Positions 45,873 to 52,411 of a stretch of 64,000 nt of DNA are shown here, piece by piece. The number at the start of each line of letters is the position of its first letter. Position 1 is the stretch's first letter. A program made the translations under genes and the position numbers. This DNA comes from Arthrobacter sp. PvP023 (lineage in GTDB: Bacteria; Actinomycetota; Actinomycetes; Actinomycetales; Micrococcaceae): contig NZ_JAFIBI010000001.1 in NCBI RefSeq assembly GCF_017832975.1, positions 4,464,001 through 4,528,000 of the forward strand. Direction: 5' to 3'. The notes beneath the pieces were generated by a model. It was not told the origin of the DNA, searched no databases, and saw only the letters and a list, made by a program, of their open reading frames with translations.

Positions 45873-45904
45873 GGAAGGGCCGGCACATATGTGCCGGCCC
45901 TTCC
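45873..45904 (+). terminator. Perfect 32-bp palindromic terminator
   Basis: GGAAGGGCCGGCACAT and its exact complement ATGTGCCGGCCCTTCC, followed by TGTTT, 50 bp after the ATPase stop. Confidence 0.85.
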
Positions 45905-46174: not shown

Positions 46175-47518
46175 TTACTCGGTGTCGGCGGTGTGCTTGT
46201 CGAGGATGATCTGCTCCACGGCACTTGCGGTGTAACCCCAAACGGTGAGCTGGTTCAGGTAGTGGAAGTGCCGCTTCTCGGCGGACCGCCATGAGTCTTT
46301 CTGGATGGTCTTTTCATACCCGGCGCAGATCAGGGCGATGAGGGAGAACTCGGGCCGGGCGGTGGTTTTGGCGGTGTGGTCCCGCAACGGGTTCCAGCCC
46401 CACCGGTCGGTGTCCTCCCCGGTCTTGGCCCCGATCATCTCGGTGGCGACCTTGCCGTCGTAGCCGCTGGCGGTTTCGGGGTCGTGGGTGATGGCGTGGA
46501 CAGTGAAGTACTGCCAGCCCTTCGGCGCGGTCTTCCGCGACAGCAGGGTCTTCACGAATTCACGCCTGACCTTGGTGGCACTTTCCATCTCGCGGTTATT
46601 GGCGATCAGGGTCTTCCGCTCGGCTTTCTGTTCCTCGGTCATCGGGCCTTTCTGGGCCTGCGTGCCGCCGTCGTAGCGTTCGTACTTCGGGGTGAAGCCC
46701 AGATCCTTCCAGCCGATGATGACTGGCTGAGCGTTGTGCTGGCCCCGGTAGTCGGTGCTGATCAGGTAGGCGTTGGCGTCCTCGTCGGTGGCCGGTTCCC
46801 CGTCGGCCCGCTTCGCGGCCGAGACGTACAGGTTCTCTTCGTTGGCGTAGTGCCCGGCGTCCTCCACGATGGTCTTGCCCTGCGCCTCGAGCTCGGCGAT
46901 GAGGGCGGCAAGGGCGGCGGCGCGGTCGCGGCGGTCCCGGAGCATCTGCGCGACGTGCAAGAGCTGATCGGGTTCGTCCGCGATCACGGACTCCAACTCC
47001 TCCGTAGCGTCCTGGCTCCCTTCAAACTCGGCCATGATGAGCGCTTCATCGATGGTGTATCCCTTGCCCAGGGCGGCGGATCCGGCGTTCGAGGCTTTGG
47101 CCTTCAATGCCCCTTCCACGGTGGTCTTGGTCCGCCCGGTCTTCTTGGCGATCGCGGCGGCTGACACGCCGATCAGGGACAGCTGGTGGTAGGCGTCGGC
47201 CTCGTCCGCTTCGGTCAGTTCGGCGCGCTGGATGTTCTCCACGACCTGCGTCACGATGCGCTCGGCTTCCTCGGGGGACTCGATGATCATCACCGGGATG
47301 CTGGTGCGCCCGGCTTCAACAGCCGCGCGGGTGCGGCGCTGTCCCATCAGGACATGCACCACGCCGTCGTCCTTGCGGTGGGCGATGACCGGTTCCATCA
47401 CGCCGTGCTCTTTGATGCTGGCAATGAAATCCGGGGTCAGGGCGGCGTCTTTGCGGACGTTGATGTCCACGGTTAAGGCGGCCGGGTCGAGCATTTCGAG
47501 GGTGGGTGTGGTGTTCAT
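46175..47518 (-). CDS. ParB/RepB/Spo0J-like protein
   Basis: 447 aa from ATG 47518 (AAAGGAG ahead). The N-terminal ParB/sulfiredoxin-type domain has NVRKDAALTPDFIASIKEHGVMEPV and GQRRTRAAVEAGRTSIPVMI, the nucleotide-binding RR motif; a helix-turn-helix follows (AAAIAKKTGRTKTTVEGAL, ~115-135). The ~280-residue C-terminal part is specific to plasmid and integrative-element versions. No parA is near, which argues against ordinary chromosome partition and for a transfer-related or regulatory role. Its leader is shared with the DprA-like gene. Confidence 0.88.
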   Translation of the reverse strand: MNTTPTLEMLDPAALTVDINVRKDAALTPDFIASIKEHGVMEPVIAHRKDDGVVHVLMGQRRTRAAVEAGRTSIPVMIIESPEEAERIVTQVVENIQRAELTEADEADAYHQLSLIGVSAAAIAKKTGRTKTTVEGALKAKASNAGSAALGKGYTIDEALIMAEFEGSQDATEELESVIADEPDQLLHVAQMLRDRRDRAAALAALIAELEAQGKTIVEDAGHYANEENLYVSAAKRADGEPATDEDANAYLISTDYRGQHNAQPVIIGWKDLGFTPKYERYDGGTQAQKGPMTEEQKAERKTLIANNREMESATKVRREFVKTLLSRKTAPKGWQYFTVHAITHDPETASGYDGKVATEMIGAKTGEDTDRWGWNPLRDHTAKTTARPEFSLIALICAGYEKTIQKDSWRSAEKRHFHYLNQLTVWGYTASAVEQIILDKHTADTE

Positions 47519-47563
47519 GGTGTTGCTCCTTTTGCAGAGGATTCCGGTGGGTGGGGCGGCTCA

Positions 47564-47897
47564 GGTGACCGGCCAGCTTCCCCTCTCCCCCCGACGCTTC
47601 TATGTCTGTCAAGCGGGCGGGAAACGGGTGCGGGCGCGGGCGCGGACCAAGTTGTCGCCTGGGGCGGTTTTGGTGACCGGCCAGCGTCCCCTCTCCCCCC
47701 GTTGTTTTGGCGGCTGGCGAAGCTTGCGGAGCTGTGGCCGACGGAGGCCCGTCTACCCGCAGGGCAAGGGGCGGGAAAATTCCCGGAGGAAATCAGCGAC
47801 GAAGGAGCGCCGCAGGGACATTCCCGTCACGCGGGCCCCGACGAAGGAGGGGCTAGACGGGCCGGAGCGGACACGTACAATCCGTCAGGACAGCAGC
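47564..47897 (-). promoter_or_regulatory. Conserved structured leader of the ParB-like gene (copy P)
   Basis: Ends 45 bp before the ATG. Contains two copies of GGTGACCGGCCAGC plus a C-rich CCCCTCTCCCCC box (plus-strand reading, 47564-47594 and 47672-47701), a long-range inverted repeat GGCCCGTCTA/TAGACGGGCC (47746-47755, 47854-47863), a CCC-GCA-GGG mini-hairpin (47756-47764), and the block GGAGCGGACACGTAC (47864-47878). All recur, in the same order, before the DprA-like gene. TTGACA (minus strand, between the two boxes) may be part of a promoter. Confidence 0.7.
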
Positions 47898-48135
47898 CAA
47901 AACGGTAATACTGGAACAGTCCTTGAGCCGGCATGACCCAGCCAAAAGTTGACGTGCCTGGCGGCACTGTCTTCCCGACGATCTGTCTGCCGGCTCAAGG
48001 TCCGTTAAAAGGGGTGTCGAGCCAGGCGGACATGACCTCATAGGAGCCTGATACGACCAGTCCCATTACCGTTTTGTCTGCCCACCTGGCCCGCGCCCGA
48101 TCAGTATCGAACTCGACTGAGGGGCAATTTCCATC
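47898..48135 (+). ncRNA. Candidate IS110 bridge RNA region
   Basis: The non-coding flank before the IS110 transposase contains nested inverted repeats: CAAAACGGTAAT (47898-47909) with ATTACCGTTTTG (48065-48076); inside it CCTTGAGCCGGCA (47921-47933) with TGCCGGCTCAAGG (47988-48000), enclosing GTGCC-TGGC-GGCAC (47954-47967); and a second hairpin CAGGC (48023-48027) with GCCTG (48046-48050) and an 18-nt loop. Two loop-bearing hairpins upstream of the recombinase is the layout of IS110-type bridge RNAs, which specify target and donor DNA. Guide pairing could not be tested. Confidence 0.55.
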
Positions 48136-49404
48136 GTGGCAAGCGAACCAACAAAAATCATCGCGGGTATCGACACCCACGCCGACACACACCACGTAGC
48201 CGTCATCAACGAACACGGCAAACCCCTCGCGGACAGGGAATTCCTAGCCGTGGGATCCGGATACCGGAAAATCATCGACTTCATCACCTCCTACGGCACA
48301 GTCATCGCCGTCGGGGTCGAAGGAACAGGATCCTACGGCGCCGAGCTCGCCAGGACTCTCCGGGGTGAAGGGATCACCGTGCTGGAGGTCAACCGCCCGA
48401 ACCGGGCCGCCCGCCGACTCAAGGGAAAGTCCGACCCGCTGGATGCCTACCAGGCCGCCAAGTCCGTACTCGAGGGACGGACGAAGGCGATCCCAAAGGC
48501 CAAAGACGGCCCCGTTGAATGCCTGCGGATCCTACGTTCCGGGCGCACATCAGCCATCAAGGCCCGCACCGCGGCCATCAACCAAATCAAGGCCCTCCCC
48601 GTATCGGCACCGGACAAAATCCGGGCGAAATACCGGGCACTGGCCACCTCCGCGCTCATTACTGCCCAGCAGCGAAACAGGCCCTCAGGACACATGGCTG
48701 ACCCCGAGTACGTGACCCTGCTGACGCTCAAGGCATTGGCAGCCCGCTGCAAGGCGCTGGGAGCAGAAATCGAGGCTGCCGACGCGGCACTCAAGGAAAT
48801 CCTGGACAGCTACGCCCCGATGCTCTGCGATCTCCCAGGAGTCGGTACCGAAGTAGCCAGCCAGCTGTTGATCACCTTCGGGGACAACCCGGACCGGCTG
48901 GGAAACGAAGCCCAATTCGCCTCGCTCGTCGGAGTCGCACCCGTACCAGCCTCATCAGGCAAGACAACCCGCCACCGGCTCAGCCGAGGCGGCGACCGCA
49001 ACGCCAACAATGCCCTGCATCAGGTAGTCCTGGTCCGCATGGCCTCATGCCAACGAACCAAGGATTACGTGGCCAAACGCACGACCGAGGGCAAGAGCAA
49101 ACGCGAAATCATGCGCTGCCTCAAACGCTACGCAGCCCGCGAAATCTACCGCCAGATCACCAACCCCCGGCCAGCACCTAACAACTCAGACCTCCGACGC
49201 ATGCGGACCGAACTCGGGCTCACCATCACGACCGTAGCCGGCGAACTCGGCCAATGGGTGTCAATCATTTCGCGCCTGGAACGCGGACACATCCGAAATG
49301 ACGACCTGGCCGCGACCTACCGCCAATGGCTCAGCCAGCAAACGGCAGCCCATCTACACGCCAGGGAAGCTGGCAGTGAAGTCGAAGGAAGCCTGGTGTC
49401 TTAG
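48136..49404 (+). CDS. IS110-family transposase with C-terminal HTH
   Basis: 422 aa starting at GTG. The N-terminal DEDD domain has GIDTHADTHHVAV, VGVEGTGSYGAELA and KSDPLDAYQAAK (catalytic acids); the Tnp20 domain has LPGVGTEVASQLLITFGD and VPASSGKTTRHRLSRGGDRNANNAL, which includes the catalytic Ser. A final ~60 residues (LRRMRTELGLTITTVAGELGQWVSIISRLERG) read as an XRE-type helix-turn-helix, unusual for this family. Moves by RNA-guided recombination in characterised relatives. The gene appears intact. Confidence 0.92.
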   Translation: MASEPTKIIAGIDTHADTHHVAVINEHGKPLADREFLAVGSGYRKIIDFITSYGTVIAVGVEGTGSYGAELARTLRGEGITVLEVNRPNRAARRLKGKSDPLDAYQAAKSVLEGRTKAIPKAKDGPVECLRILRSGRTSAIKARTAAINQIKALPVSAPDKIRAKYRALATSALITAQQRNRPSGHMADPEYVTLLTLKALAARCKALGAEIEAADAALKEILDSYAPMLCDLPGVGTEVASQLLITFGDNPDRLGNEAQFASLVGVAPVPASSGKTTRHRLSRGGDRNANNALHQVVLVRMASCQRTKDYVAKRTTEGKSKREIMRCLKRYAAREIYRQITNPRPAPNNSDLRRMRTELGLTITTVAGELGQWVSIISRLERGHIRNDDLAATYRQWLSQQTAAHLHAREAGSEVEGSLVS

Positions 49405-49582
49405 GGACACTGCTGAACAGCAAGCCTTTGCGCCGGCCTCACAGTGCCGGCGCTGCCGGCATGCCAAAACGTCAAGGCCAGAAAGGTCGTATCGACCAAT
49501 GAGCTGCCCCGGCGGTCCGACGCCTATGACATCGGTGCTTGGGATGAGATTTAGCAGGAACTCGGCACAAACGAGATGCAGT

Positions 49583-49616
49583 TGGAGGCCGGACTGCAGC
49601 TTCAGTCCGGCCTCCA
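49583..49616. terminator. 14-bp-stem terminator
   Basis: TGGAGGCCGGACTG (49583-49596) and CAGTCCGGCCTCCA (49603-49616) with a 6-nt loop, between the IS110 gene and the converging small membrane-protein gene. Confidence 0.8.
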
Positions 49617-49633
49617 GAAGTGGTGCCCGATGG

Positions 49634-49858
49634 TTACAAGCGGTTATTCGTTGGCGAGGCTGACGACGAGGCCCGGCGCACAAGCGAGCGAATCACAAGG
49701 ACCTCGTAGACGAGGAATAACCCGACCAATAGGAAGTCGTACCACTCGGCTTGAAGACGAATCAGCAACGCGCCCAGACCGACTACTCCCAGAAGTTGAG
49801 TAATCAAAATGACAGACCAGGGAGTCGGCTCGATTTTCTTATCCACAGGAGATAACAA
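49634..49858 (-). CDS. Small two-TM membrane protein
   Basis: About 74 aa from TTG 49858 (AGGAGG 5 nt ahead); GTG 49864 and GTG 49846 are other possible starts. Two hydrophobic helices (WSVILITQLLGVVGLGALLI and YDFLLVGLFLVYEVLVI) and an Arg/Ser-rich tail. It overlaps the 3' end of the secreted-protein gene, so the two are translationally linked. An immunity or export helper for that protein would fit, but no family is recognised. Confidence 0.6.
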   Translation of the reverse strand: MLSPVDKKIEPTPWSVILITQLLGVVGLGALLIRLQAEWYDFLLVGLFLVYEVLVIRSLVRRASSSASPTNNRL

Positions 49859-50468
49859 TGCCACCTCCTGCATACAGCACGCCACTGCCATAAGCAGCCC
49901 ATCCAATGGAGCCCACGGGCATGGTAAGAGACACAATCACTCCGATCGCAGCATATGCACAGCCGACCGAAACAGGGTATCCCCGGGGAATCAAGTCGGG
50001 GCTATAGTGGGCGACATGCCGTCCGGAAATGTATGAATCCAGCCAGCCGTGGCAGGCGAGAATCTCTTTTCCGTACCACCCCATCGTCACACCGTTGTAC
50101 GCGGTGCAGTAGTTATCGTACTCGCCTGTTGCCATCAGAGTCAGATCTGAACCCTCAGTTGGTCCAGGCACCTCTACCCTCTGGAAGTCGCCCCGCGCTT
50201 CGAGGCGACGTCTCAACTCCTGCTGAACAGCCGCCGACTGAGGCCCGTTCAACAACGCTTCCAACCTACTGTTTTCGCCTCGAAATGCTTCGTCAACCGC
50301 TCGCACGATTGCATCACTTTTCGGATCAGCGTTTGTGATCCTGGACTCTTGCGAAGTTGCGTTACTAGCGGCGCGTTGTGGGACTGCGTTGGCGCCGCTT
50401 CCTCCCAGCAGTAGCGCAGCGCATGTGGCCAGAACAATGCTCGCTCTTCTGATTCGGCTCTGATACAT
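49839..50468 (-). CDS. Secreted protein with Gly-rich hydrophobic C terminus
   Basis: 209 aa, GGGGGAG before the ATG. Signal peptide RRASIVLATCAALLLGGSGANA, a charged helical middle (DAIVRAVDEAFRGENSRLEALL), then Cys-containing YDNYCTAYNGVTMGWYGKEILACHGWLD and a C-terminal stretch (GVIVSLTMPVGSIGWAAYGSGVLYAGGGIVISCG) rich in Gly and hydrophobic residues. Family unknown. The layout (exported protein plus coupled small membrane protein) recalls bacteriocin/immunity pairs. Confidence 0.7.
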   Translation of the reverse strand: MYQSRIRRASIVLATCAALLLGGSGANAVPQRAASNATSQESRITNADPKSDAIVRAVDEAFRGENSRLEALLNGPQSAAVQQELRRRLEARGDFQRVEVPGPTEGSDLTLMATGEYDNYCTAYNGVTMGWYGKEILACHGWLDSYISGRHVAHYSPDLIPRGYPVSVGCAYAAIGVIVSLTMPVGSIGWAAYGSGVLYAGGGIVISCG

Positions 50469-51022
50469 CTTTCTCCCCCATGAGTAATGAATCGAACCTC
50501 GACCATATGCCTAATCGATGGATTTTCCTTCGCATTAGAAATTTTGTAATTACTCCGTTACTAGAATTGACAAGCCCATGCCGTCCTGCGGATGCGCCAT
50601 GGCGACCGGGGCCGATCCTGCGCGGCGCCAAACCGGCAGCCGAAGGTCCAGTCCGGAATTTTGTCGGCGTATAGCTAGTACCGTCGCGGAGCATGGTCCA
50701 GAGGACTTCGAACAGAACGAATAGGTTTGACAGCTATAGGAGCATCGTCTTCAATAAGACAGGGCCGGGGGCGGCGGAGCCGGCGCTGGACCCGCAGCCG
50801 GCCGCGCCAGCGGACGCCCTTTCCTAGTGAGTCCTGCGAACCCTCCATCAGCACCCCGGGTCTTCTTTCGGCTTCCCTGGCTTCGGCGCCCCGCGCGCCC
50901 CGGTCGCCCGGCACTCAGTGTGCGAACGGCGGTCCGCCGCAGCCGACCCACAGCGCAAGCCGGCCACAACGGCGGACCGCCAGCGGTGACCGCCCCGGCA
51001 ATGGGACGGCCACCTGAAGCGA
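50469..51022. other. Gene-free stretch with a possible terminator
   Basis: 554 bp between the secreted-protein gene and the DprA-like stop codon. No convincing gene was found on either strand. GGCGGTCCGCC (50928-50938) and GGCGGACCGCC (50971-50981) are inverted copies that could terminate the DprA-like transcript. The 5' part is AT-richer and probably holds the secreted-protein promoter. Confidence 0.5.
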
Positions 51023-51931
51023 CTAGCCTGCGAGGAGTTCGACCAGTTCGGCCGCATCGGACACCAGCACCGCCGCGCCTTCTTTCAGGAGCCGGTGGCA
51101 TCCTGCCGAGTTGGCGCTGTGCACGCTCCCGGGGACGGCCGCGACATGCCGGGCAATGGTTTCGGCGTGGTGTGCAGTGTTCAGCGCCCCTGAGCGCCAG
51201 CGAGCTTCCACGACACAGGTGACCCCGGCGAGGGCGGCGATGATGCGGTTCCTCTGCAAAAAGCGGTGCCGGGTCGGGGCGGAACCGGGCGGGAGCTCTG
51301 AGAGCGTCAGCCCGTTGCCGCGGATCGCGGCCGCGAGGTCAGCGTTCCCTGACGGGTAGTCACGGTCAAGGCCTCCGGCCAGTACCGCAAGGGTCGCCGG
51401 TCCTTCTCCCTGGCTCCCGGCCAACGCGGCCCGGTGCGCGTGCGCATCGATGCCGTAGGCCAGCCCGGAGATCACGCAGATTCCACGTTGGGCCAACCCG
51501 TATGCCATATCCCCTGTAACGGAGGCGCCGTAGCTGGTCGAGTCCCGGGATCCGGTCAGGGCCACACACTTCGAAGGCGCTGGGATGCCGTTGTCGATGT
51601 TGCCCCGGTACCAAAGCCCGTACGGGGCGTCGGGCAGGTCGTTCAAGCCTTCAGGCCAGTGCTCATCTCCTGGGTCGAGGAACCCGCCGCCGAGGTGTTC
51701 GATGGTGGCCAGGTCCTTCTCCGGGTCGACCTCCGGAACCCGTGGAGCCCATCGTCTCAACGCTTCTGACAGTTCTTCGACCGTGGCTTCAGGGATGGCG
51801 TGGACGGGCTGGGCGCCGGTGGCAAGCCTCAACGCGGCGTACGCGCCGAGCCTGCCCACGAGGGCCCGGCCGACATGGTCGCCGGGTTCGAAGAGTCGGG
51901 TCAGGGCTGCGCGTGCAATGCGATCGTTCAT
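51023..51931 (-). CDS. DprA-like DNA-processing protein
   Basis: 302 aa from ATG 51931 (AAAGGA ahead). The DprA Rossmann domain is complete: CVALTGSRDSTSYG, VISGLAYGIDAHAHRAAL, TLAVLAGGLDRDYPSGNADL, LSELPPGSAPTRHRFLQRNRIIAAL and ALNTAHHAETIARHVAAVPG. DprA binds single-stranded DNA and loads RecA during natural transformation; shorter paralogues occur on mobile elements. It lacks the usual C-terminal winged helix and rpsB/topA-type chromosomal neighbours. The shared leader with the ParB-like gene suggests a mobile-element function. Confidence 0.88.
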   Translation of the reverse strand: MNDRIARAALTRLFEPGDHVGRALVGRLGAYAALRLATGAQPVHAIPEATVEELSEALRRWAPRVPEVDPEKDLATIEHLGGGFLDPGDEHWPEGLNDLPDAPYGLWYRGNIDNGIPAPSKCVALTGSRDSTSYGASVTGDMAYGLAQRGICVISGLAYGIDAHAHRAALAGSQGEGPATLAVLAGGLDRDYPSGNADLAAAIRGNGLTLSELPPGSAPTRHRFLQRNRIIAALAGVTCVVEARWRSGALNTAHHAETIARHVAAVPGSVHSANSAGCHRLLKEGAAVLVSDAAELVELLAG

Positions 51932-51978
51932 GGTTTCTCTCGTCCTTTGCTGAGGATCCGGTGGGCGGGGGCGGCTGT

Positions 51979-52197
51979 GGTGACCGGCCAGCTCCCCCTC
52001 TCCCCCGGGATGTTTGCCTGCTGGCGGAGCAGCGCGTAGCTGTGCCCGACGGAGCCGGGGCAACCCGAAGGGCAAGCAGCGGATGGGTTGTGGGAGGAAA
52101 TAAGCGCAGCGCCGACACAAGGCATCGGCTGCGCAGCCGTCCGCAGGACGGTTGAGCCGGTGGAGCGGACACGTACGATCCGCAGGACAGCAGCAAA
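51979..52197 (-). promoter_or_regulatory. Conserved structured leader of the DprA-like gene (copy D)
   Basis: Ends 47 bp before the ATG. Same elements as copy P: GGTGACCGGCCAGC with C-rich box (51979-52008), CGACGGAG (52047-52054), a long-range arm pair CCGGGGCAACC (52055-52065) with GGTTGAGCCGG (52150-52160; 9 of 11 pairs), CCC-GAA-GGG mini-hairpin (52064-52072) and GGAGCGGACACGTAC (52162-52176). It also contains CGGCTGCGCAGCCG (52126-52139), a perfect palindrome, and CCGTCC-GCA-GGACGG. The sequence between box and ATG is also conserved. Confidence 0.7.
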
Positions 52198-52411
52198 AAT
52201 AGAAAAATGCTTTTACAGTCCGAGCGAAGTGAGGTCCGTGCAGTAGACCTGGGCGCTAGCTGGGCGAGGGCCGGAAACCGGATTCTTCAGACAGCGCGTG
52301 GTTTCCGGGCTACGTTGTGGTGCTCGCGCGTTCAGCACCGGCTTGCTGGTGGCGGGCCGTCTTCTTGCAGCGCTAAGTGGCACTCCCAGCAGGGGGCGCC
52401 GCAACGAAACC

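Follow-up and report, generated by a model that had tools for sequence, protein, structure and literature searches.

The window analysed here is a 64,000-nucleotide stretch of the chromosome of Arthrobacter sp. PvP023 (contig NZ_JAFIBI010000001.1, positions 4,464,001-4,528,000; 4.7-Mb genome). It carries genes for a ParB-like and a DprA-like protein, each preceded by one copy of a structured leader module (copy P and copy D, respectively), and it is the fold of this module, the strand on which that fold is maintained and its proposed role in conjugation that we describe. The window holds a relaxase-less chromosomal remnant of the leading region of a conjugative plasmid. A profile search of the strain's own genome found neither a PF08751 nor a PF03432 relaxase (MOBF/MOBP), so the two copies are stranded; their outer stems are slightly decayed, and an IS110-family element sits at the foot of copy P (Table 1).

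Anatomy of the leader module

A sequence-only reading of this stretch had proposed that the two genes share a leader built of inverted-repeat arms, a CCC-N3-GGG mini-hairpin and conserved blocks, and every element was found where it had been placed. The motif GGAGCGGACACGTAC lies at 47864-47878 and 52162-52176, the 21-base block GGAGCGGACACGTACRATCCG has two matches in the window (0.02 expected by chance), and GGTGACCGGCCAGC occurs at 47564, 47672 and 51979; with its C-rich tail, the last has no further site in the genome. One correction concerns copy P, in which the box and C-run are present twice, 108 bp apart.

While the arms, the mini-hairpin and CGACGGAG stood as described, the structured unit proved larger than had been thought. 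In gene sense (- strand) it extends from a T-run and TGGCTGCTG through CAGCAGCCAAAA, about 215 nt; next come a G/A-rich run, the GCTGGCCGGTCACC box, a Shine-Dalgarno leader and the ATG. These ~215 nt are enclosed, within the module cores listed in Table 1, by a 13-pair outer stem of T-run/A-run type (gene sense: left, TTTTGGCTGCTG; right, CAGC(A/C)GCCAAAA). Inside it are a second stem (GTGCCCG/CGGGCAC) beside the arms already noted, a CCCC/GGGG hairpin, a long central hairpin with a conserved loop, and the mini-hairpin; the second stem and the central hairpin are additions to the earlier description. The arms had been said to pair in both copies, which holds for copy P; in copy D the pairing is imperfect.

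Distribution of the module

A BLAST search with the module gave matches only in Micrococcaceae plasmids (about 178 places in about 65 plasmids, all from Arthrobacter, Paenarthrobacter, Pseudarthrobacter or Citricoccus). By using a covariance model (R1), the module was found in 142 of 395 Micrococcaceae genomes, representing 17 of 32 genera. Outside the family, weaker matches were obtained in 8 genomes among 396 sampled from the order, and a few also in another family of the class. In some matches outside Micrococcaceae, nothing but the central hairpin (loop CGGCGCT..CGCTTATTTCC) can be recognised, between quite different flanking stems. The loop CGGCGCT..CGCTTATTTCCTC is kept at L059, L062, L065, L066, L067 and L070, which come from other Micrococcales families and another actinobacterial family; because it is kept where the flanking stems differ entirely, this loop may be the recognition element.

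Conservation of the secondary structure

The earlier proposal that structure has been kept while sequence changed was borne out, with compensatory cells far above shuffled and slid controls in both alignments examined. Across 36 copies aligned with MAFFT, the 55 pairs of the structure contained 192 cells with changes on both sides, compared to 66 after shuffling and at most 75 with slid partners. Across 127 copies there were 940 compensatory cells, compared to 277 (shuffled) and at most 203 (slid), with double changes in 48 of the 55 pairs; this larger alignment was fitted to the covariance model, and its counts therefore lean towards the model. Single-sequence fold z-scores for the two window copies were weak (-2.1 and -1.2 for the template strand, -0.3 and -1.1 for the sense RNA), so these two copies alone are insufficient as proof of a structure and the case rests on covariation. 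Taken on that basis, conservation of the module's secondary structure is strongly supported. No Rfam family matched in the window at gathering thresholds. Coding conservation was considered separately and rejected, as indels between copies are not in threes and the pattern of change is compensatory.

Strand on which the structure is maintained

Where a G-C pair has changed to A.C when read on the transcript strand, the template strand carries G.T at the same positions, and counts of the two wobble types can therefore reveal which strand is under selection. Counts were restricted to pairs common to four folds (sense and template strands, each with RNA and DNA energies), and RNA controls were taken from the same bacterial family and passed through the same pipeline. 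Read on the sense strand, A.C exceeded G.T in 36 copies (68 vs 31), in 112 copies aligned with MAFFT (206 vs 115), in tree-based events (97 vs 47) and in the model-fitted alignment (85.7 vs 34.5). F-type Frpo, an established single-strand promoter, gave 17 vs 5. Three RNA controls had the opposite preference, namely ribonuclease P (RNase P; 37 vs 145), transfer-messenger RNA (tmRNA; 23 vs 94) and the glycine riboswitch (20 vs 37); the cobalamin riboswitch, also tried as a control, was absent from these genomes.

G>A and T>C changes both feed the A.C excess, and this speaks against simple deamination of cytosines on the transferred strand. The excess of T>C opposes the trend at unpaired sites, and the wobble asymmetry is not fully explained by these sites. 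Mutational bias as the cause was rejected, since A-T pairs show more T>C than A>G, the reverse of unpaired sites. The template strand was the more stable one for the module and for Frpo with RNA and DNA energies and in every parameter set; for RNase P and tmRNA the sense strand was more stable, and the glycine riboswitch was near even. Selection thus acts on pairing of the template strand.

Position relative to relaxase genes and downstream genes

Several copies were present on 42 contigs (107 copies), none of which had copies of mixed strand. All 74 copies that have a relaxase gene (PF08751 or PF03432) no more than 30 kb away (37 contigs, with MOBF and MOBP types) are on the relaxase strand, and 70 of them are upstream of the relaxase gene by roughly 3-27 kb. 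The remaining 4 are on two contigs with reversed order, possibly through circular permutation. The same order was found in 11 annotated plasmids with MOBF or MOBP relaxases. Relaxase genes typically mark the lagging side (PMC11541004), which places the module genes in the leading region, reading towards the presumed origin of transfer (oriT); on this arrangement we infer from the relaxase position that it is the template strand of these genes that is transferred.

The distance from the module match to the start codon is narrowly distributed (median, 66 nt; interquartile range, 62-69), and an open reading frame with a Shine-Dalgarno-like sequence is present behind 113 of 127 copies. Among 70 downstream proteins there were 21 with DUF4192, 15 with ParB_N, 9 DprA, 2 with the ArdC N-domain and 2 with DUF3560, and other downstream genes head operons with glutaredoxin and SSB; these are genes of leading-region kinds. 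Some copies have a terminator-like hairpin and T-run immediately 5' of the module, which leaves little room for a separate upstream duplex promoter.

A candidate single-stranded-DNA promoter

Judged from these sequence comparisons, the module is probably a single-stranded-DNA promoter of the leading regions of actinobacterial conjugative plasmids. In the mechanism we propose, the first plasmid strand to enter the recipient would be the template strand of the leading-region genes, and each module in that transferred single strand would fold into a branched structure closed by the T-run/A-run stem. RNA polymerase would start at or just outside the foot of this structure, at the purine-rich run, and transcription would run out on the single-stranded template into the gene about 66 nt downstream. 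The ParB-like, DprA, DUF4192, ArdC and SSB-operon genes would in this way be expressed early, until the complementary strand is made.

The sequence-only reading had named a promoter of the Frpo kind as one of two candidates. Position and orientation in the leading region, gene content, the template-strand wobble and the scant upstream room favour it; as for the promoter itself, we infer that the module promotes transcription and that the start site lies near its foot, and no sigma70-type -35/-10 pair was found in the module. A TAGACA/TTGACA-like hexamer is present in one inner stem, with no -10 at a fitting spacing. The missing -35/-10 pair weighs against a single-stranded-DNA promoter, and so do several further points: the assignment of the transferred strand comes from the relaxase position, the fold z-scores of single copies are weak, the G>A excess alone is marginal after correction for unpaired sites (p 0.09), and an antisense RNA would yield the same strand preference. 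The thiamine pyrophosphate (TPP) riboswitch control was also discordant (A.C 8 vs G.T 2, with only 10 informative cells), and because it ran the wrong way the strand test is unreliable for small samples.

A further-reaching version may be entertained, with rather more doubt than confidence. The modules could form a class of single-stranded-DNA promoter of their own, widespread among the conjugative plasmids of actinobacteria and lacking a sigma70-type -35/-10; they would be recognised by RNA polymerase with another factor through the conserved apical loop (gene sense CGGCGCT-N-CGCTTATTTCCTC) and the AT-rich outer stem. On that view, transcription of leading regions from a single strand would have more than one origin.

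Alternative explanations

The other candidate of the sequence-only reading was a cis-acting RNA, that is, a structured 5' leader (riboswitch or regulator) transcribed from a conventional promoter 5' of the module and controlling the leading-region genes. The location of the module directly 5' of start codons would suit it, and the sense strand can fold too. The A.C preference on the transcript strand is the reverse of what three RNA families from the same bacterial family show, folds of the template strand are more stable in every parameter set, a T-run adjoins the module and no Rfam family matches, and we regard an RNA leader as quite unlikely. A single-strand site for initiation or priming (ssi/sso type), at which synthesis of the complement of the transferred strand begins and which is not mainly a gene promoter, would account for template-strand folding and leading-region position, and Frpo also makes a replication primer RNA, judging from the title under which PMC11541004 and PMC9849209 cite Masai and Arai 1997. 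However, a plasmid often has several copies, and each keeps a fixed spacing to a start codon and Shine-Dalgarno sequence; since a pure priming site need not track genes, such a site is an unlikely explanation.

The module might also be a regulator of the type of EGeRS1, a repeat of the Bacillus pLS20 family, which would block read-through in the donor and allow transient expression in the recipient by a mechanism that is not single-strand. EGeRS1 has the same architecture (multi-copy, GC-rich, with inverted repeats directly 5' of the ribosome-binding sites of establishment operons, including that of ardC), and no sigmaA promoter was found for it (PMC8708921). Its nicked strand is reportedly the coding strand, whereas position and wobble of the module both indicate the template strand, and we give this explanation little credence. 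Least probable of all would be a protein-bound repeat with no promoter function, for instance a site at which the ParB-like protein of the leading region binds or acts in partitioning. A 2016 report, as cited in PMC10494377, does link these repeats to plasmid partitioning and conjugation, but binding to duplex DNA would leave the compensatory pairing, the strand-specific wobble bias and the placement before genes of many kinds unexplained.

Relation to known systems

The single-stranded-DNA promoter that we favour resembles Frpo/ssi of F, ColIb-P9 and their relatives (Masai and Arai 1997; PMC9849209; PMC11541004) in its occurrence in the leading region as several near-identical copies a few kb apart, directly 5' of ssb, ParB-like and anti-restriction genes that all read towards oriT. 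Frpo1 and Frpo2 of the F plasmid are 92% alike (PMC9849209). As with F Frpo, which points to oriT, it is the template (transferred) strand that folds, with the same wobble bias. The module differs from Frpo in its GC-rich branched fold with its own conserved loop, in having no recognisable -35/-10 and in belonging to another phylum, and its promoter role is a prediction from sequence. The R1 covariance model had no match in the F leading region. As there is no sequence match to Frpo/ssi, the claim is that the module would work like Frpo, not that it is a homologue. Frpo surveys such as those of PMC11541004 and PMC12826799 search by similarity to enterobacterial Frpo or its -35/-10 boxes.

EGeRS1 (PMC8708921), the nearest Gram-positive counterpart of the module, is likewise found on Gram-positive plasmids, as multi-copy inverted-repeat regions 5' of establishment operons that include ardC. 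Unlike the module, it is 400-600 bp long, has another sequence, and reportedly blocks read-through and has its coding strand transferred (PMC8708921). The read-through block and the lack of a constitutive duplex promoter were addressed there by a reporter experiment, and a single-strand promoter was considered and excluded by the authors because the nicked strand is the coding strand (PMC8708921). A BLAST search with EGeRS1-B matched 64 Bacillus plasmids and 1 Paenalkalicoccus plasmid and no Arthrobacter plasmid. In 5 EGeRS1 copies of pLS20 (L227 44008-46400, and L228) the template strand folds better (RNA energies, -367 vs -334), and among their common pairs A.C vs G.T is 5:1, a small sample that disagrees with the published verdict against a single-strand role. 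Since these copies also fold better on the template strand, the module and EGeRS1 may be of one kind.

Conserved DNA repeats 5' of DUF4192, DprA and ParB genes on 12 plasmids were described by Mihasan and Brandsch 2016, as cited in PMC10494377 and PMC6305408. Where they refer to these repeats, the citing papers present them as markers of a partitioning and conjugation system common to these plasmids, with no fold, strand or promoter role attached (PMC10494377, PMC6305408). With the same plasmid group and the same three genes, the 2016 repeats are almost certainly the module. The repeats themselves have thus been known since 2016, while the fold, the strand and the leading-region logic appear new as far as those citations go.

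Features of the window and associated elements

Table 1. Features of the two leaders and their surroundings (window coordinates)
Feature	Position	Strand	Evidence or remark
ParB-like gene (ParB_N domain), 3' of copy P	46175..47518	-	Pfam PF02195, E 4e-11
Leader with AAAAGGAG Shine-Dalgarno-like sequence 5' of the ParB-like gene ATG	47519..47563	-	Sequence; conserved module-to-start distance
Copy P distal box GCTGGCCGGTCACC (gene sense) and G/A-rich run	47564..47592	-	
Copy P spacer between duplicated boxes	47593..47671	-	
Copy P proximal box and G/A-rich run, directly at structure foot	47672..47701	-	
Copy P structured module core	47693..47913	gene sense -, inferred folding strand +	Covariance model R1, 221 bits
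Copy P outer stem	gene-side arm 47704..47716, far arm 47891..47903		12/13 pairs Watson-Crick
Copy P helix 3, gene-side arm	47734..47742		Partner 47867-47874
Copy P arm noted earlier, GGCCCGTCTA	47746..47756		Partner 47854-47863
Copy P CCC-N3-GGG mini-hairpin	47756..47764		
Copy P long central hairpin	47772..47827		Conserved apical loop (gene sense CGGCGCT..CGCTGATTTCCTC)
Copy P CCCC/GGGG hairpin	47835..47853		
IS110-family transposase gene, element inserted at copy P outer-stem foot	48136..49404	+	PF01548 and PF02371; insertion point shared with three plasmids
DprA-like gene, 3' of copy D	51023..51931	-	PF02481, E 2e-63
Copy D box and G/A-rich run	51979..52008	-	
Copy D structured module core	52000..52210	-	R1, 162 bits
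Copy D outer stem	gene-side arm 52011..52023, far arm 52188..52200		9/13 pairs in model alignment
Copy D arm noted earlier, CCGGGGCAACC	52054..52065		Partner 52151-52161, imperfect
Copy D long central hairpin	52079..52129		Sequence unlike copy P, same loop (CGGCGCTGCGCTTATTTCCTC, gene sense)

A spacer similar to that of copy P (CTTGACAGACATAGAAGCGTC) lies between the boxes in pChr15, pSI-1 and NicSoilB11. More generally, the purine run and box are duplicated 3' of the module in several plasmids, and the spacer mostly ends with CTTGACAGACATAGAAGCGTC (window 47593-47671; L004 25224-25310; L005 21837-21903; L007 13936-13988; L008 14583-14679). On the other side, 60-100 nt 5' of many modules, there is a second conserved hairpin domain (GGCCGGCTGTTG...GCCGGCC around a variable stem; for example L006 before 25198, L098 before 1501 and L100 before 1501). 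As this domain often precedes the module, the full element may be about 300-350 nt long.

Closely related IS110-family elements were found at an identical point of the outer-stem foot (...CAGTATTACCG|TTTT) and in the same orientation in 4 contexts (window 47904-49404; L007 12246-13690; L019 8297-9789; L012 19886-21379). Their transposases are 81-100% identical, and the element behaves as if targeting the module. Elsewhere in the window, a perfect 16-bp palindrome (GGAAGGGCCGGCACAT/ATGTGCCGGCCCTTCC, 45873-45904) follows a + strand ATPase gene and is probably a terminator.

Implications

The wobble-asymmetry test is general, in that it separates RNA structures from single-stranded-DNA structures by comparative sequence alone, and with it the strand question could be put to further repeats, EGeRS1 among them. 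How the anti-defence genes of an incoming plasmid are expressed while it is still single-stranded is explained by single-stranded-DNA promoters. To our knowledge, the switching-on of the first plasmid genes from a single strand has so far been shown only in plasmids of gut-type bacteria. If the module is such a promoter, a covarying and strand-tested family from Actinomycetota would carry the principle into a further phylum, would define the leading-region genes there (ParB-like, DprA, DUF4192 and ArdC) and would provide a model for finding more.

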